A stretch of DNA of 38,640 bases. Origin: a virus. Under the pieces are notes generated by a model that did no database searches, was not told the origin of the DNA, and saw only the letters and a program-made list of their open reading frames with translations. The stretch is taken from the IMG/VR virus record IMGVR_UViG_3300044825_003787, positions 1-38,640 of that record; one strand, written 5' to 3'. The stretch's first letter is position 1, and every line of letters starts with the position of its first letter. The position numbers and the translations under genes are program-made. Shown piece after piece: positions 1,279-38,640 of the stretch.

Positions 1279-2634
1279 TTAAATTTTTTGGTCTGGTTGC
1301 CATCCTCTGAACTTCATAAACACTGGAAATCTAAGGCTCCACGTATCATTATCCTGACTTTTCGTGAGTGCATCACCTTTAATCTCAACAATTCTACCTT
1401 TTACCTCTTCTTTATTTTTCCAAATTTGATCACGCAATTCTTCACTTAATCCGCTACCAACTGTTACAGATATGTTCTTACCTTGATCAGTACCTGAACA
1501 AACGATTCCACCAGTTGTATGTGAGTATTTACTGTCTGGTTTTCCTGGCTCAATATCAACAATTGTCAGGTCAACAGTGATAAACGGTTTCAATTTAAGC
1601 CAGGAGTCAGTTCTTTTTGTTTTATATGTAGAACTAGGATTTTTAATCATGATACCCTCATAACCAGCTTCTATTGCTTCTCTATTAAACTCTTTATAGT
1701 TTGTCTGACCTTGTTCTGTATCAAGATCAACCAACAATTTTGGAATGATATAAATTGTATTATTACTATATTTTTGTAAAATGTCAGTGAATTCTACAAG
1801 AGCATTATGACGCTCTGATTGAGTAAGGAAACATTCACCCGCCATAAAATCTTTAAGAGGTAAACAGTCAAATAATGCAAGTTTTGCATCTGATGTGTTG
1901 ACATTTTCTTTACGATTTAATTGTGTCATCAGGTCCTGAAAGCTCTTACTGACAACTTCACCATCAAATACCATACTTTCTTTAATGAGTGGCAATAGCT
2001 TAACTAATGACGATACAATAAGTGGAAAGTTATCATTTTGTTTACCATCTCTGCTGTACTGTATTACAGTATTTTTTTCTTTATCCAGAATGGAGATCAA
2101 TCTTACTCCATCTAATTTTATATCAAGGTATTTTTTACCTGAAATTTTAGCTGGATAATCTTCTCCATTCTTAGCTAGTTGACAAGAAAATACAGGGATA
2201 ATGTATTTTTTTGCTGATGTTCCATTTTTCAAGAGTACTTTATTTATAGTACCTTCTGTGATACCACATTTGAGGTCTTTTAAAATAATTCTACGATACC
2301 AATAATTCCATACTAATACTTGGCTATTATCTGCTGCTATTCTTAAAGCATCTCGTGCATCATTGCCTGTTAAACTTCTATTCTCTAATTTTTCTATTAA
2401 TTTTTTAAAATCATTCCATGATAAATTTCCAGTTTCATCATCTATATCTGTTATTAGAGGGACTTTTTTAATTCCAAAAGTTCTCATAGAATCATAAGCT
2501 ATAATTGATCCTTCAAAGAATTCTAGTATTTGATCATCCCATGCATGCTGAATGATGGTTTCTTTTTCAGTTCTGCTGGTAGTATTCTCAAGTGCTTTGA
2601 TAACATCAACTGGATTTTTCATATTTTTTCTCAT
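1279..2634 (-). CDS. ATP-dependent DNA ligase
   Basis: 451 residues, near the size of T4 gp30. It seals nicks in duplex DNA during phage replication and repair through an enzyme-AMP intermediate. Motif I with the adenylated lysine is IKLDGVR (K173). Motif III is MVFDGEVV, motif IV is EGIMIKN, and motif V is the SWLKLKP segment. The C-terminal part (VGSGLSEELRD onward, ending RFPVFMKFR) looks like the OB-fold domain. The ATG at 2634 is used; an in-frame ATG four codons later is possible, and neither has a strong ribosome binding site. A sigma70-like promoter lies just upstream at 2649-2677. Confident in family; T4 gp30 is the nearest familiar relative. Confidence 0.93.
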   Translation of the reverse strand: MRKNMKNPVDVIKALENTTSRTEKETIIQHAWDDQILEFFEGSIIAYDSMRTFGIKKVPLITDIDDETGNLSWNDFKKLIEKLENRSLTGNDARDALRIAADNSQVLVWNYWYRRIILKDLKCGITEGTINKVLLKNGTSAKKYIIPVFSCQLAKNGEDYPAKISGKKYLDIKLDGVRLISILDKEKNTVIQYSRDGKQNDNFPLIVSSLVKLLPLIKESMVFDGEVVSKSFQDLMTQLNRKENVNTSDAKLALFDCLPLKDFMAGECFLTQSERHNALVEFTDILQKYSNNTIYIIPKLLVDLDTEQGQTNYKEFNREAIEAGYEGIMIKNPSSTYKTKRTDSWLKLKPFITVDLTIVDIEPGKPDSKYSHTTGGIVCSGTDQGKNISVTVGSGLSEELRDQIWKNKEEVKGRIVEIKGDALTKSQDNDTWSLRFPVFMKFRGWQPDQKI

Positions 2635-2648
2635 ATTTTATTTAAATT

Positions 2649-2677
2649 ATTTTATCATCTTTTTAATAATGAGTCAA
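2649..2677 (-). promoter_or_regulatory. sigma70-like promoter for DNA ligase
   Basis: On the minus strand TTGACT, a 17-base spacer and TAAAAT sit just before the ligase start. Two boxes at optimal spacing make this a fair early-promoter candidate despite the AT-rich background. Confidence 0.5.
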
Positions 2678-2710
2678 TAATACCTATTTCTTATATAGGC
2701 TGGAGAAATA

Positions 2711-3129
2711 GATCATATCTCCCCCATTAAAGGGTAGAGATATGATCTTCTATAACCTCAAACACAGGCATGTGTCATAGATCAGTTTTCATGGTGTTAA
2801 TTGATATTAACGCTGGCGGTTGTCCTGTACCAGCATGCCATGCATATCTTGGATGTAAATCCAACAGCGGCAACTATAAATGGGCTTCTGATAACCAATT
2901 ATAATCTTGATCGTTATCATGACCGGACAGAGCGATTCTTTTTTCCTAAGCATAACTTAAGGCGATAATTTTTGCATCTATTACCTTCTTGATGCATTAT
3001 ACCGGTCTCGGGCTGGTGATTAAATATAAGATCATTGGTACAGCCGATACTTACCGGTCGTGTGTAGCGCACATTTAGTTATGCGTTCCTGACGGTGACC
3101 GTCCCTTCCGCAGATAGTATAATCTATCA
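2711..3129. ncRNA. candidate structured non-coding RNA, family unknown
   Basis: About 420 bases without a convincing ORF and clearly richer in G+C than the flanks. It holds a chain of inverted repeats: an 11-bp stem 2711-2721/2737-2747; ACACA/TGTGT 2762-2775; GCTGG/CCAGC 2812-2834; TTGGAT-GTAA-ATCCAA 2849-2864; TGATAAC/GTTATCA 2889-2919; GACCGG/CCGGTC 2921-3007 enclosing two hairpins (2945-2962 and 2974-2995); GGCT/AGCC enclosing GTGAT/ATCAT (3011-3045); GCG-GACGG-TGA-CCGTC-CGC (3083-3111); GATAG/CTATC 3114-3129. The GTAA loop is a GNRA tetraloop only on the plus strand, and one helix needs a G-U pair on that strand, so plus is slightly favoured. The hairpin at 2711-2747 would suit a terminator for a minus-strand RNA. 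No RNase P, tmRNA or group I/II core motif was recognised. Confidence 0.6.
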
Positions 3130-3292
3130 TTTCAAAGCTACTATAAGTTATATGTGATTATGGGTTAAAATTAATGATAGATGCAAATAAAAATAAGAAG
3201 ATAATTTGATTTTTTAAATATAAATTAGATATTTTTAGGTTACGATGTTTGATATATTAGTATTATAATTTTCAAAGGATTGTTTTGCAATA

Positions 3293-3913
3293 TTAATAGT
3301 CAATTTTGGGGAATAATATTTTTGTCATGAATTCTTCAGTTTTTTCAATTCCGATTAAATTAACCAGTGCTTTTCTGGTATGTGGGTTACTTTGCTGCTG
3401 GGAACAATAGTAATTTTGAGCTTGTATGATCGGCAACGGATCTGACTTGTTGCCAAGAGATTTTAAATACTTTTCCATTATTTTTAGTGATTCATCACCA
3501 ATTTGTATTAGCTCTTCTGAGCTTGGTCTGCAAGCAAGCCAGTGTTCGCTAAAAATATCACCCCATTCAGGTCTTATACGCTCACTATTAGCTGTAATGT
3601 TTATGAAAGGCTCAACAGGCATCACAGTAGGGCTTAGGTCCAGGAATAACCCTGTGACCTTATTAACCCCTGCTATAACATCAAATCCAAATATAGGGGC
3701 AGGATCTGTCGCATGTGGGAATATGCAACAATGAACAACCCCAAATTTTTCTTGTTTAAATATTTCAATATGTGCCAACCTAAACTTAGGACTTTCAAAT
3801 CTATAATTTTCCCATCCATAGTCAGGAGTGTATAAAGGATTTATTTCTTCTTGGGACTTAATAATGTTCAGCTGCGAAAATGCAATATTTTCTATTAAAT
3901 CAATGCAATTCAT
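3293..3913 (-). CDS. ferredoxin-dependent bilin reductase, PcyA/PcyX-like
   Basis: 206 residues. The family reduces biliverdin to phycobilin pigments with electrons from ferredoxin. Aligned by eye to Synechocystis PcyA, the key residues are kept: H48 and E50 (PcyA H74, E76), H61 (H88), D78 in PIFGFDVIAG (D105), the WGDIFSEHW segment, and N176 in the QQQSNPHTR segment (N219). The Asn at the last site is PcyA/PcyX-like rather than PebS-like, where an Asp is found. It is shorter than PcyA at the N-terminus. Its start overlaps the end of the heme oxygenase gene by 14 bases, so heme to biliverdin to bilin is one operon. The exact product (phycocyanobilin or phycoerythrobilin) cannot be told from sequence. 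Confidence 0.9.
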   Translation of the reverse strand: MNCIDLIENIAFSQLNIIKSQEEINPLYTPDYGWENYRFESPKFRLAHIEIFKQEKFGVVHCCIFPHATDPAPIFGFDVIAGVNKVTGLFLDLSPTVMPVEPFINITANSERIRPEWGDIFSEHWLACRPSSEELIQIGDESLKIMEKYLKSLGNKSDPLPIIQAQNYYCSQQQSNPHTRKALVNLIGIEKTEEFMTKILFPKIDY

Positions 3914-4436
3914 TCAATTCATCGTATATATCAATTATAAATTTAAATGCAATCTTTGCTTCTTCAATGTCTGTCTCATTCAAATTAATCAATATATTTG
4001 ATCTCATATATTCAACACATTGTTTGACATTTTCAAATTTCAAATGTGTTTGTGGTAAATTTATTTTCTTGGCAATCATCTGCCCACCGTATAACCATCC
4101 AAGGTAGTTAGCATATAGGTGACCCGTTATTTTATTTTTGGTGGACGTTAAATGATCAATATATTTTAACGTTGATTGACATGTATAGACTGGTGAATCG
4201 CCACATTCTACAACATCTTCTATAAAAGTATTTTTTCTTTTCAAAAACTCTGGCAATTCACTTGTACATTTATCTTCAATTGTGCGAGTAATAAGAAAAA
4301 ATTGGTAGCAGAGATTTTTCCATGAGGAGTTACTTATTGTGCCCTCTATCATAGATTGGGCTATTTTGGTTTTTTCTGCTTGATCATGAAGCTCTTGTAC
4401 TGCCAGCCTTAAAGTTTTTTGATCTACAATATTCAT
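3900..4436 (-). CDS. heme oxygenase (biliverdin-producing)
   Basis: 178 residues, shorter than typical cyanobacterial HO1 (about 240). It opens heme to biliverdin, CO and Fe2+. The proximal heme ligand is H17 in AVQELHDQAEKT. The distal helix glycine motif is YLGWLYGGQ (residues 111-119), matching YLGDLSGGQ of known heme oxygenases. It feeds the overlapping bilin reductase downstream. A TTGCAT-17-TATAAT promoter lies 32 bases upstream of the start. Heme oxygenase/bilin reductase pairs are known from cyanophages and from marine phages carrying PcyX. Strong call. Confidence 0.92.
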   Translation of the reverse strand: MNIVDQKTLRLAVQELHDQAEKTKIAQSMIEGTISNSSWKNLCYQFFLITRTIEDKCTSELPEFLKRKNTFIEDVVECGDSPVYTCQSTLKYIDHLTSTKNKITGHLYANYLGWLYGGQMIAKKINLPQTHLKFENVKQCVEYMRSNILINLNETDIEEAKIAFKFIIDIYDELNELH

Positions 4437-4533: not shown

Positions 4534-5097
4534 CTATTTACGTACTAATCGTAAATTCAATTGATTAAAAACTTCAAGCAACGTTTTTATTCTGTTGAAT
4601 TCAGACCTTTTGTACTTTTCTGGGAGTGAATCCCATGATCTGCAAATTGGGCTAGTTTTTAGAGTGTCATTATGTTTATTGCTGAATCTCCAACCTTCAT
4701 CCATACGTGTTTGTACCCACCTATTATGGTTCATGCGGGCTGCTTCAATAGCGATGTATTCCAGGAGGTCTTCTGAAATAGTCTGCAGTCTTGGATCATC
4801 CTGATAGCCTTGACTCCATGATACTTCATATGTATTATTAGGTTGTTTTTCCGCAAAGCTGGTAGCTAGTTTTCCAGCCTCTGTTGAGCTTAGATCTCTT
4901 GATAAACATGTAATATAACAATGTGAATTGTTTATTTTTCTGTAATAGAATTGTAGATTTTTATTTGTTGGTGGTATTTCAGTTGCTACAACGGTCCCAT
5001 CTGGACAGTTTTCCAATGAACATTTGATCCAGCACTTGACTACATCATCCGGCAGTTGGTCTTTAGATTTTAAACATATATAAGGGTGTGTAAGCAT
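4534..5097 (-). CDS. RyR-domain protein
   Basis: 187 residues. Residues about 118-175 match the RyR domain first seen in ryanodine receptors and also found in bacterial and phage proteins: an ARMNHNRW start, EGWRF, a polar stretch ending in KTSP, then WDSLPEKYK and a closing helix. The domain's role in phages is not established; ligand or nucleotide binding has been suggested for the wider family. Residues 1-110 show no motif I recognise. It is the last gene of the minus-strand glycosyltransferase block, 15 bases after the GT9 fragment. No membrane segment is visible. Confidence 0.75.
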   Translation of the reverse strand: MLTHPYICLKSKDQLPDDVVKCWIKCSLENCPDGTVVATEIPPTNKNLQFYYRKINNSHCYITCLSRDLSSTEAGKLATSFAEKQPNNTYEVSWSQGYQDDPRLQTISEDLLEYIAIEAARMNHNRWVQTRMDEGWRFSNKHNDTLKTSPICRSWDSLPEKYKRSEFNRIKTLLEVFNQLNLRLVRK

Positions 5098-14202: not shown

Positions 14203-15663
14203 ATGGAGAAATGCGTGGATATTTTTGAAGAAAAGCCTATTAAAGTCATTAAAAAGAATGAAGGATATACTGACCCAGTAAAGCTTTATTTACGAGAGGT
14301 TGGTGGATCCCCCCTACTGACACATCAGCAAGAAATTGAAATCAGTCGTCAAATTGAAAATCATAAGAAGAACATTCTTACGCATTTATTTGATATTAAA
14401 ATGACTTCTGACACGGTTGCTGGTTGGGTTGACCAAGCAGTGTCTAATCCTCTAGTTGCAAATCAGATTTTTGATGTGGAATTGAAAGAAGACGAGACTC
14501 TTCCCTCTGAATTTATTAAGACTATTCAAGAATTTAAAGCAGCGCACGATCAATACAATCTTAATAAAACGGAAGAATTGCGGAATGTCCTGGTTGAAAA
14601 GTACATGGATCTTCCAGTTAATTTAGAGAATACTGCTGAACTTCTAAAGCAGGTTCTTGCATATAATAAGACTATAATTTCAATTGATGGTCAGCTAATG
14701 AGACTTGCAATAAGCTCTGGCATATCACGCGAATCATGGCTTTCAGAGTATTATAACCATACTGATTTGTCTTGGCTTGACAATCATGCATGGGCTGGTA
14801 ATTTTGAAAAAAACAAAAACCAGTTGGATAATTTAAACAGTAACATGCAAGATATAATGCATAAAACAGGTATGGATATCAACAGTCTGCGTAAAACACT
14901 TGATTATCTAAGAAAGCAGGCAGAAGATAAAGATGCAGCTGTACAAAAAATGGTTCGTAGTAATTTGCGACTTGTGATCAGCATTGCAAAAAAGTATAAC
15001 AACAACAATCAAACAATTTTGCTGGATCTTATTCAGGAGGGTAATATAGGTCTAATTAAGAGTGTAGAAAAGTTCAAGTGGCGGCTGGGGTATCGTTTCA
15101 GCACCTATGCTACATGGTGGATCAGACAAGCAATTGTTCGTGCAGCCAATGAAACTTTCAAAACCATTCGTGTGCCTGGGCATATTCTTGAAGCTATTAA
15201 AAAGATTAATAAAGCAACACAAGAGTATGTAGACACATATGGTAAAGAACCTAGCGATGAAGAACTTGCAACCCTTCTTAAAATGGATTCTGTGAAACTA
15301 TCAAAGATTATGCAAGTATCAAAAGAACCAGTCAGCTTGGAAACACCTGTTTCTGATGATGAAGATGCAACAATCGGGAGTTATATAGAAGACGTAAATG
15401 CAATTGATGCATTTGAAAAGATAAATTCAGATGATATCAGTAAGGTTGTGGCTTCCGCTCTTTCAACACTGAATAGCAGAGAAGAACGAGTTTTACGTAT
15501 GAGATTTGGTATTGGCACTATGGATGAGCATACTCTGGATGAAATCGGTAAAAAGTTTCAGGTAACTCGGGAGCGAATCAGACAAATTGAAGCAAATGCT
15601 TTAAAGAGGCTGAAAACACCCAACAGAATTAAAGATCTTGAATCAATTATTCAGGACGCCTAA
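14203..15663 (+). CDS. RNA polymerase sigma-70 factor, RpoD-like
   Basis: 486 residues. Region 1.2 is at residues 24-55 ([17 protein letters not shown]). A non-conserved insert spans about 60-240. Region 2 is complete from about 247 ([45 protein letters not shown]). Region 3 follows, and region 4.2 has a clear helix-turn-helix near 442-470 ([20 protein letters not shown]). This is the layout of a primary sigma factor, not of small T4 gp55-like late sigmas. The -10-reading segment ([19 protein letters not shown]) differs from bacterial RpoD (IADQARTIRIP), hinting at changed promoter preference. It should recruit host RNA polymerase to phage promoters. No strong ribosome binding site precedes the ATG. 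Confidence 0.92.
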
Positions 15664-35866: not shown

Positions 35867-36895
35867 ATGGCAAAAGTTTATGGATTAGCCGTCTTTATCG
35901 GCAGATTTCAACCATTTCATCTTGGACATGAGTCAATTATCAAGCATGGACTTGAAGTTGCTGATTCAGTTCTTGTATTAGTAGGAAGTTCCGACAGTCC
36001 TCGGTGCCATAGAAATCCATTTCTGTTATGGGAACGTAGTTCCATGATACTTGATGTATTTAAGGGAAACGACCGCGTTTATGTTGAGCCACTTTCAGAT
36101 TCTAATTACAACGATAGCCACTGGATTACAGAGGTTCAAGAAATTGTAAGTAGATATCAAGGGGATTTAAATAATAAGCCAGTATGCTTGATTGGACATA
36201 AAAAAGATTCTACCAGTTATTACCTTAAAATGTTCCCACAATGGGAATCTGTTGACTCCCCAAACTACAAAAACATCAACAGCACAGATATTCGTGCTAG
36301 TTATTTTAGTAATATTGGTCATATGTGGATAAACGACGCACAAAGTCTAGTGCCCAAGCAGGTTAAAAATTTCTTAAAAAGATTTATGGATGAGTATTCA
36401 TATAATAAAATCAAAGATGAATATGAATTCATCGTGAAATATAAGTCTGCGTGGGCTAACAGTCCTTATCCGCCTACATTTGTAACAGTTGATGCGGTTG
36501 TTGTGCAGTCAGGCCATATACTCCTTGTCAAAAGGGGGGCTCAGCCTGGGCTTGGGCAGTGGGCGTTACCCGGTGGATTTGTAAATCAAGACGAAAGAAT
36601 TGCCGACGCAGTTATAAGAGAACTACGAGAAGAAACTGGGATTAAAGTTCCAGACCCTGTTCTGCGTGGAAGTATTGTTGCTCGTGAAGTTTTTGATGAT
36701 CCTTACCGCAGTGCTCGTGGTCGAACAATTACGCATGTTAGTTTGATTAAACTTAAGGATGACCTCACATTGCCCCGTGTAAAGGGAGGTGACGATGCTG
36801 CCAAAGCAACCTGGATCCCATTAACTGACTTGTATGCGTCTGATTTCTTTGAAGATCATTTTGCAATTATTCAAAACATGCTGGGAAGGATTTAA
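35867..36895 (+). CDS. nadM: bifunctional NMN adenylyltransferase / Nudix hydrolase
   Basis: 342 residues, with GGAG before the ATG. Residues 1 to about 180 are a nicotinamide mononucleotide adenylyltransferase: FIGRFQPFHLGHESII (HxGH at 18-21) and later NINSTDIRASYF with the second nucleotide-binding R. Residues about 190-342 are a Nudix domain: GGFVNQDERIADAV followed by IRELREETGI, the full G-x5-E-x7-REVxEExG box. The first domain makes NAD+ from NMN and ATP; the Nudix part cleaves a nucleotide diphosphate (ADP-ribose is the usual substrate of such fusions). Known in KVP40-type and other large phages. Works with the nadV-type gene at 37589. Confidence 0.94.
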   Translation: MAKVYGLAVFIGRFQPFHLGHESIIKHGLEVADSVLVLVGSSDSPRCHRNPFLLWERSSMILDVFKGNDRVYVEPLSDSNYNDSHWITEVQEIVSRYQGDLNNKPVCLIGHKKDSTSYYLKMFPQWESVDSPNYKNINSTDIRASYFSNIGHMWINDAQSLVPKQVKNFLKRFMDEYSYNKIKDEYEFIVKYKSAWANSPYPPTFVTVDAVVVQSGHILLVKRGAQPGLGQWALPGGFVNQDERIADAVIRELREETGIKVPDPVLRGSIVAREVFDDPYRSARGRTITHVSLIKLKDDLTLPRVKGGDDAAKATWIPLTDLYASDFFEDHFAIIQNMLGRI

Positions 36896-36897
36896 TT

Positions 36898-37188
36898 ATG
36901 GAAAATAAGTTAAGGGTAACATTTGAGCTTGATGTAACATCTCATGTCTCTGGTTTAGAAGATAATCTTGTACTTGCCGCAGCTAAGCAATATGCGTTTG
37001 ATTTGATCTTTCAAAGTGCACTGCTGGAAAAGCATGAAATGCTAATTAAATCTCAACAGACATATAGTGGTAACAAAGCTCTGGATGATGCAGTAAGACA
37101 TTCTCTTAGAAAAGAGATTGAAGCCATTAAAATGGCTGAAAATTCTGCCAAGTTTGAATTAATTTCAAGTAACGATCAGAATGAGTGA
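36898..37188 (+). CDS. 96-residue protein, unknown
   Basis: Begins 2 bases after the NadM-Nudix stop, so coupled to it. N-terminal beta strand (LRVTFELDVTSHVSG), then long helices (DNLVLAAAKQYAFDLIFQSAL, DAVRHSLRKEIEAIKMAENS). No family recognised. Its place between two NAD genes suggests, but does not prove, a link to NAD metabolism. Confidence 0.6.
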   Translation: MENKLRVTFELDVTSHVSGLEDNLVLAAAKQYAFDLIFQSALLEKHEMLIKSQQTYSGNKALDDAVRHSLRKEIEAIKMAENSAKFELISSNDQNE

Positions 37189-37507
37189 AGCCATGGAAAA
37201 ATATGAATTTTTCACAGATAAAATGATTTATTCCAAAAAATGGAAAACATTTGAAACGGACAATCTATTTAGATGGCTTCATCAACATTTTTCAGAAAAT
37301 ATGTTTGTTTGGGATGCCGATTGCTGTGGTACACAGGAAATCAAAATTGTTGTAAAAGATAAGAATGCAAATGAAAGCTTTTTCCTTGCAGAAAATTCTT
37401 GGTGGATTGATGAGGAATCTAACATTAAAAATGAATTTTTTCTTGAAAGGAAAGAAATCCTACAGTTTCAATATCCAAAAATTAGTAGAGAATGGTTGAT
37501 ACTTTGA
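37181..37507 (+). CDS. 108-residue protein, unknown
   Basis: Overlaps the previous gene by 8 bases. Alternative ATG at 37193. Aromatic and acidic (YEFFTDKMIYSKKWKTFE, FRWLHQHFSENMFVWDADC, ENSWWIDEESN). No motif recognised. Part of the NAD operon by position. Confidence 0.55.
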   Translation: MSEAMEKYEFFTDKMIYSKKWKTFETDNLFRWLHQHFSENMFVWDADCCGTQEIKIVVKDKNANESFFLAENSWWIDEESNIKNEFFLERKEILQFQYPKISREWLIL

Positions 37508-37543
37508 GGCTTACAACACACTAATAACATGATAAACTAACAA

Positions 37544-37564
37544 TAGCAAAGATAGACTTTGCTA
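37544..37564 (+). promoter_or_regulatory. 5' hairpin of the nadV leader (repeat of the nadM hairpin)
   Basis: TAGCAAAG-ATAGA-CTTTGCTA, a perfect 8-bp stem with the same core and loop as 35823-35837. It lies 24 bases before the ATG. A GATAAA box at 37531-37536 sits at nearly the same distance from it as the -10 box does in the nadM leader, but no good -35 is seen. Confidence 0.6.
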
Positions 37565-37588
37565 TATTAAAAACAAAGGAGATTTGTT

Positions 37589-38640
37589 ATGACATATAAT
37601 TTAATTTTAGACGTTGACTCATATAAAGTGAGTCATTTTAATCAATATCCTGCAAATACTTCACATGTATATAGCTACATTGAAAGTCGTGGCGGTAAAT
37701 TTGACCGCACAGTTTTCTTTGGGCTGCAGATTTTCATTAAAAAATATTTAATGAACCCTATCACCCGTGAAATGATTGATGAGGCTGAGGAGTTTTATCA
37801 AGTTCATGGAGAACCTTTTAACCGTCATGGTTGGGAACACATTCTGAAGCATCACAATGGTTTCCTGCCAATTCATATCAAGGCGGTAGCAGAAGGTTCC
37901 ATTATTCCCACACATAATGTGCTGGTCACGGTGGAAAATACTGACCCCAAATGTTTTTGGTTGACCAGCTATGTGGAAACAGCGCTTCTTCGTGCAGTTT
38001 GGTACCCAACTACTGTAGCCACTCTTAGCTGGCATGCCAAACAGGAAATCCTTAGCGCGCTTTATAAGAGCAGCGATGATCCGAAAGGACAAATCGGCTT
38101 TAAGCTGCATGATTTTGGGGCGCGTGGAGTTAGCAGTCTTGAAAGTGCTGGTATTGGAGGTGCAGCCCATCTTGTAAACTTCATGGGATCTGACACTGTG
38201 ACCGGCGTTTGGTATGCAAATAAGTATTATAATGCTAAAATGGCTGGTTTCAGTATTCCTGCTGCTGAACACAGTACCATTACAAGTTGGGGTCGTTCTC
38301 ACGAAGCAGATGCATACGCAAATATGGTCAACAAGTTCGGAAAACCTGGAAGTCTGGTTGCTGTTGTAAGCGATAGTTATGATCTTATGAATGCAGTTAA
38401 TAATATCTGGGGTGATCAATTAAAGCAGACAGTAGTCAACAGTGGTGCAACTGTGGTAGTTCGTCCTGATAGTGGTGACCCAACAAAAATTCCACTTGAT
38501 GTAATTGATGCACTAGGTGAGAAGTTTGGTTTTACCTTAAACTCACATGGATACAAGGTTTTGCATCCAAGTGTTCGGGTGATTCAGGGTGATGGAATAA
38601 ATCTTGAAACTATTAAAACACTTAGTAAAGACCTGCTGTC
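37589..38640 (+). CDS. nadV: nicotinamide phosphoribosyltransferase (runs off the window)
   Basis: The first 350 residues are visible; the C-terminus is beyond the window. AAAGGAG precedes ATG 37589. The enzyme joins nicotinamide and PRPP to make NMN, the substrate of NadM upstream. Family motifs: LDVDSYKVSHFNQYP, YSYIESRGGKFD, HDFGARGVSSLESAGIGG, IPAAEHSTITSWG with the catalytic His, and VVRPDSGDP, the phosphate-binding part. Together with NadM it forms a complete nicotinamide-to-NAD+ route, like that of phage KVP40. Confidence 0.94.
   Translation, partial: MTYNLILDVDSYKVSHFNQYPANTSHVYSYIESRGGKFDRTVFFGLQIFIKKYLMNPITREMIDEAEEFYQVHGEPFNRHGWEHILKHHNGFLPIHIKAVAEGSIIPTHNVLVTVENTDPKCFWLTSYVETALLRAVWYPTTVATLSWHAKQEILSALYKSSDDPKGQIGFKLHDFGARGVSSLESAGIGGAAHLVNFMGSDTVTGVWYANKYYNAKMAGFSIPAAEHSTITSWGRSHEADAYANMVNKFGKPGSLVAVVSDSYDLMNAVNNIWGDQLKQTVVNSGATVVVRPDSGDPTKIPLDVIDALGEKFGFTLNSHGYKVLHPSVRVIQGDGINLETIKTLSKDLL

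Follow-up and report, generated by a model that had tools for sequence, protein, structure and literature searches.

A structured RNA on the minus strand of an uncultured phage genome very probably belongs to a shape-selected family in large phages

What is encoded by a stretch of phage DNA that holds no gene, is dense in inverted repeats and resembles no familiar RNA? Positions 2711-3129 of the window, as the whole analysed DNA is called here (a 38.6 kb IMG/VR virus record), raise this question. They had been taken, from the letters alone, for a likely undescribed phage RNA, and this proposal is strongly supported by comparative pairing evidence and by the lack of an Rfam match. The minus strand of the region very probably contains a free-standing gene for a structured RNA, one of a family that is selected for its shape in uncultured large phages and matches no known family. 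Large noncoding RNAs with such elaborate folds are rare.

Gene context and composition confirm that the region is gene-free and richer in G+C than its surroundings (about 38-41%, against 23-30% in the flanks). It lies between a DNA ligase gene and a bilin reductase gene, both on the minus strand (Table 1). The conserved RNA core occupies 2690-3133, and its 5' end would lie near 3149 if an upstream promoter-like site is used. A gene running from about 3149 to 2690 would yield an RNA of about 445-460 nt, slightly beyond the limits of 2711-3129 first drawn for it. The predicted fold comprises 14 helices or more, among them one that closes the structure over a long range, and a pseudoknot.

Several other genes of the window deserve mention. 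The bilin reductase gene adjoins a heme oxygenase gene (together 3293-4436) and is followed by a RyR-domain gene (4534-5097), an order found again in loci L008 and L097. NAD salvage genes, for a cytidyltransferase/Nudix protein and a nicotinamide phosphoribosyltransferase (PHROGs), occupy 35867-38638. A phage sigma factor of 486 aa (14203-15663) is of primary type and nearly full-length, carrying Sigma70 regions 1.2, 2, 3 and 4 and the non-essential region. Two very similar tandem genes (MLNIKRIEEVFLEYY...) lie at 1-564 and 570-1142, the second without a Pfam match; their similarity suggests a recent duplication.

Table 1. Predicted RNA gene, its structural elements and its neighbours in the window
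Feature	Positions	Strand	Evidence
ATP-dependent DNA ligase gene, downstream neighbour	1279-2634	-	PF01068, E 1.6e-21
Promoter-like site TTGACT-17-TAAAAT between RNA and ligase	2649-2677	-	consensus 10/12
Structured RNA gene (predicted)	2690-3149	-	alignment and covariation; ends inferred
3'-terminal hairpin P14	2711-2748	-	core 93% paired; swap test p=0.0002; inverted repeat
Long-range helix P13, GAUAU 2848-2844 with AUAUC 2743-2739	2739-2848	-	96% paired against at most 61% slid
Helix P12	2796-2811	-	swap test p=0.0002, 16/21
Helix P11, conserved loop UACMGRRHAACC	2812-2834	-	96% paired; 4/6 pairs with double changes
Pseudoknot, UGU 2866-2864 with ACA 2823-2821 in P11 loop	2821-2866	-	3 pairs, 100% paired
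Helix P10	2849-2864	-	100% paired; 5/5 pairs with double changes
Helix P9, long, sequence highly variable	2873-2905	-	swap test 22.2 against 10.9, p=0.0002
Helices P8 and P8b	2910-2937	-	99-100% paired; 6/9 pairs with double changes
Helix P7	2945-2963	-	swap test p=0.0002, 21/21
Helix P6 (GCAUC/GAUGC)	2974-2995	-	swap test p=0.0002
Helix P4 enclosing P5	3002-3057	-	99-100% paired; 8/10 pairs with double changes
Helix P3	3061-3073	-	97% paired; 5/6 pairs with double changes
Helix P2, invariant purine-rich internal loop GGAAGGGA...UCAGGAAC	3083-3111	-	100% paired; both stems with compensatory changes
Helix P1	3113-3128	-	100% paired; 4/5 pairs with double changes
Ferredoxin-dependent bilin reductase gene, upstream neighbour	3293-3913	-	PF05996, E 4.4e-22

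Relatives of the region are found in other viral contigs by several routes. A search with the bilin reductase led to loci L008-L011, whose noncoding stretch downstream shares 67-69% identity with that of the window. Patterns drawn from the shared blocks were followed by a relaxed 5' motif, GGAAGGGAN{6,14}TCAGGAACNCNNA, which retrieved 47 stretches of viral contigs, and the profile confirmed most of these as true members. A second, independent motif, taken from the opposite end of the RNA, CCGCTRYTGN{30,60}GTACMGNNNAACCRC, returned largely the same set together with L316, L318 and L320. A covariance model of the 5' domain found the RNA in 24 of 50 and in 14 of 17 viral records; it matches 2998-3133 of the window at E 8.5e-27, the window being among the model's own sequences. 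Altogether, the family comprises 23 or more distinct sequences, most of which share 48-86% identity (the pairwise range among 21 aligned members), in at least 38 records of up to 453 kb, and every member comes from an uncultured metagenomic contig.

Genomes carry one to three copies of the RNA, and several records have two. The three copies of one 452,799-base record (3300032315_001715) lie about 50 to 350 kb apart and are 65-71% identical to each other (the L085 type, L307 and L308). The predicted fold, its strand, the existence of a family and a copy number of up to three per genome are all shown by comparison among relatives. In L097 (4607-4666), and likewise in L096 and L098, the first ~60 nt of the RNA are partly duplicated just upstream of a full copy.

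Beyond these contigs, four members gave no blastn match in the 50,697 records of INPHARED phages, one gave none among PLSDB plasmids, and the 5' pattern plus profile detected no member in 84,980 bacterial and archaeal genomes. The pattern by itself matched 61 times in those genomes, near the chance number estimated from pattern length and collection size, and the profile recognised among these matches only two marginal fragments of 12-13 bits; they were rejected as members. Also rejected was LR756504.1, in which only AT-rich pieces matched and the covariance model was silent. A search for ligase homologues with a single protein returned no match, and an alignment query succeeded.

The fold itself was examined by reading a consensus structure off the alignments and counting its pairs, with slid partners as the control. 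Over 19-21 sequences, pairs are canonical in 97-99.6% of the cells tested, compared with about 18-50% after sliding, and compensatory double changes occur in 40 of 57 pairs, the pseudoknot included. The search for homologues and compensating changes that had been suggested for this region has been answered positively. In the 5' domain (P1-P5, 19 sequences), 99.2% of 511 cells are canonical (29-35% slid) and 20 of 28 pairs have changed on both sides. The corresponding figures for P7, P8 and P8b (21 sequences) are 99.6%, 18-47% and 7 of 11 pairs, and for P10, P11, P14 and the pseudoknot 97.0%, 39-50% and 13 of 18 pairs; in this last set the count of further pair types equals that of shuffles (320/500). 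An alignment-free swap test, in which the 5' arm of each sequence is paired with its own 3' arm or with that of another sequence, preferred the own arm in 12 of 12 helices at p=0.0002, the minimum possible, although kinship inflates these p values, whereas the slide controls retain it.

The strand of the RNA can be read from the same pairs. G-U pairing is allowed only on the transcribed RNA strand, and when the RNA is read as the minus strand, 1113 base-pair cells hold 93 G-U and 10 A-C pairs. Because G-U pairs far outnumber A-C pairs, the RNA is assigned to the minus strand, and the plus strand, for which only 10 G-U pairs would count, was rejected. The sequence-only reading had favoured the plus strand, partly on account of a GNRA loop at 2855-2858; this tetranucleotide sits in a variable loop. 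Its claim of dense structure holds on both strands, each fold being better than all 100 shuffles (z -2.81 for plus, -3.75 for minus). No reading frame is conserved across family members, and a protein-coding or degenerate gene was rejected for this reason.

The inverted repeats named from the sequence all exist, and some are elements of the conserved fold. The GCG-GACGG-..-CCGTC-CGC repeat is helix P2 and GGCT/AGCC is helix P5 (GGCUG 3045-3041 with CAGCC 3015-3011), both kept in relatives. The proposed pairing of GACCGG (2921) with CCGGTC (3002), in contrast, is not the conserved one: ACCGG at 3006-3002 pairs instead with CCGGU at 3057-3053 to form P4, and 2921-2926 sits in the P8b loop. The hairpin at 2711-2747 had been suggested as a boundary of the RNA, and it does correspond to the 3'-terminal hairpin P14, but of a minus-strand RNA whose core reaches about 2690. 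P14 is longer in the window genome than in the family form, and P6 is missing from L215 and L186. The long-range helix P13 has the family form GAUGU with ACAUC, canonical in 96% of cells against 38-61% slid. In the pseudoknot, the family pairs CCGC-UGY with RCA of the P11 loop; the pairs are canonical in every sequence and vary in type, one position showing G-C, A-U and U-A, a second one C-G and U-A. Further invariant unpaired motifs are AAAUNAUC and GGRUSGCUCU. Such invariant unpaired blocks and the pseudoknot argue for a tertiary structure that is compact.

Comparison with described RNAs agrees with the earlier remark that no known RNA core is recognisable here. At the gathering threshold, Rfam 15 models detected only tRNAs, in L016, when applied to the window, eight relatives and four more loci, and there was no credible match at E<=1 (eight sources) or at E<=10 (the window stretch). 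GOLLD (RF02032) matched no RNA copy in 16 records, its best score being 19.5 bits against a cut-off of 150, elsewhere in two genomes. ROOL (RF03087) matched 0 of 16 records in a search whose positive control was silent too, so that the cmscan result without ROOL carries the weight. GOLLD and ROOL are large phage RNAs whose function is not known and which assemble as RNA nanocages, GOLLD as a 14-mer (PMC12286853). Like GOLLD, the RNA described here is large, multi-helix and free-standing, and occurs in phages or prophages found in metagenomes; unlike GOLLD, which is often longer than 800 nt and located close to tRNAs, it measures about 450 nt and has tRNAs nearby in one locus only. With ROOL it shares large size, a phage origin and pseudoknotting, but the Rfam model of ROOL has 574 positions, does not match, and describes an RNA often found near tRNA islands. 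No tRNA was found in 31 of 32 sources carrying the new RNA; the exception, L091, has two tRNA calls with anticodon CUA about 6 kb away. These calls are adjacent (L091 6161-6316, within the 452,799-base record), and TAG may encode an amino acid in this phage.

Vibrio phage ICP1, which lacks tRNAs, produces a noncoding RNA of ~800 nt that is its most abundant transcript (PMC7567579). It is likewise a free-standing phage RNA, but it is longer, and the INPHARED comparison above yielded no match. OLE and raiA-motif RNAs are similarly ornate and structured, but they are bacterial chromosomal RNAs, and no Rfam match to them appears here. No description of this RNA was found in the literature searched, whose scope excluded preprints and most subscription journals. 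Judged against Rfam 15 and that literature, the predicted RNA is a new class, where "new" refers to the RNA family and its fold; the broader kind, large phage RNAs without a known function, already has precedents. A further independent class, multi-copy in large phages and without a tie to a known enzyme, offers a target for asking what such RNAs do, and the covariation model makes further members easy to find.

The position of the RNA raises the possibility that it is a cis-regulatory, riboswitch-like leader of the downstream ligase mRNA. In clade I (the window, L008, L085, L086, L097, L099 and L107; 7 of 21 aligned members), it lies near the ligase on the same strand, and directly before it in most. 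In L107, a further gene separates the two; the ligase of L182 and L190 is 1.6-2.7 kb away with other genes between. Six loci (L182, L190, L201, L194, L185 and L186) have their next downstream gene on the opposite strand. Elsewhere the RNA adjoins genes for virion structural proteins, a DNA methyltransferase gene or genes without an assigned function, and no neighbour is conserved across clades. Conversely, the RNA is missing upstream of close ligase relatives (L103, L110-L117), except in L112, where it lies further upstream, and extra copies occur at other places of the same genome. The ligase genes of L086 and L142 are themselves interrupted by an apparent intein with a homing-endonuclease-like ORF (GCLSAQ... 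to ...VLVHNC).

Promoter-like sites of the TTGACA..TATAAT type, all weak consensus matches only, separate the RNA from the ligase in six clade I members (10/12 in the window, 9-11/12 in L008, L085, L086, L097 and L099) and, in L205 and L184, from the gene that follows. Weaker sites also lie 5' of the RNA in 14 members, and in 10 of these they would put its start 12-17 nt ahead of the core. In L085, L182 and L190, the RNA is preceded by hairpins with T tracts that resemble terminators. A length of 450 nt, moreover, far exceeds most known leaders, and the RNA is not consistently placed 5' of a gene with which it would be cotranscribed and which it could regulate. The leader reading is therefore largely refuted and very improbable for the family, and a cis effect on the ligase within clade I keeps a small residual probability. 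Opposite-strand neighbours, promoter-like sites, terminators and extra copies favour action in trans, and we infer a free-standing gene with its own promoter.

As to what a trans-acting RNA of this kind would do, the favoured mechanism is that it folds to a compact particle, serving as a scaffold, an RNA-only oligomer or a ribonucleoprotein core, in which the invariant unpaired motifs (the GGAAGGGA/UCAGGAAC loop, the P11 loop, AAAUNAUC and GGRUSGCUCU) would provide the docking or active sites in an infected cell. By analogy with GOLLD, ROOL and the abundant ICP1 RNA, a role as scaffold or ribonucleoprotein is preferred. This mechanism appears the most likely of those considered, at somewhat less than even confidence even if the rest of the reading holds. 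The fuller proposal, of a new class unrelated to GOLLD and ROOL that acts in large-phage infection as an RNA particle or ribonucleoprotein core and has as many as three divergent copies in a genome, is likewise put forward tentatively. A decoy or regulator bound to a machine of the host, namely RNA polymerase, the ribosome or an RNA-binding protein, would also be free-standing and could have several paralogues per genome, and some copies adjoin virion structural genes; there is, however, no resemblance to 6S, tmRNA or rRNA families, and this role seems possible but unlikely.

A new ribozyme, for instance one processing phage transcripts, would account for the compact multi-helix fold, the pseudoknot and the long invariant unpaired motifs, which recall large ribozymes. 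Yet neither group I/II introns, RNase P nor any Rfam ribozyme matches, and no cleavage site or exon junction is evident, which makes catalysis improbable. Large structured RNAs also often partner nucleases or reverse transcriptases as guides or templates (omegaRNA, reRNA, retron or DGR type), and RAGATH-18-derived RNAs with TnpB have been described (PMC11061315). A scan for the TnpB zinc-ribbon and RVT_1, with positive controls that matched, found neither in 14 records that carry the RNA, genomes of 453, 329 and 310 kb among them; TnpB and reverse transcriptase partners were rejected on this ground. As no neighbour gene is constant across clades either, a guide or template function is very improbable, and the compact particle remains the preferred reading.

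A different noncoding stretch came to light during the search for relatives. Downstream of the bilin reductase, L015 (3628-4114) and L016 (3628-4096) carry a conserved stretch that is 72.5% identical over ~500 nt and has no Rfam match; these loci were rejected as homologues of the window RNA. In L016 it lies directly before an array of 13 tRNAs, and it is a candidate for a second phage RNA.
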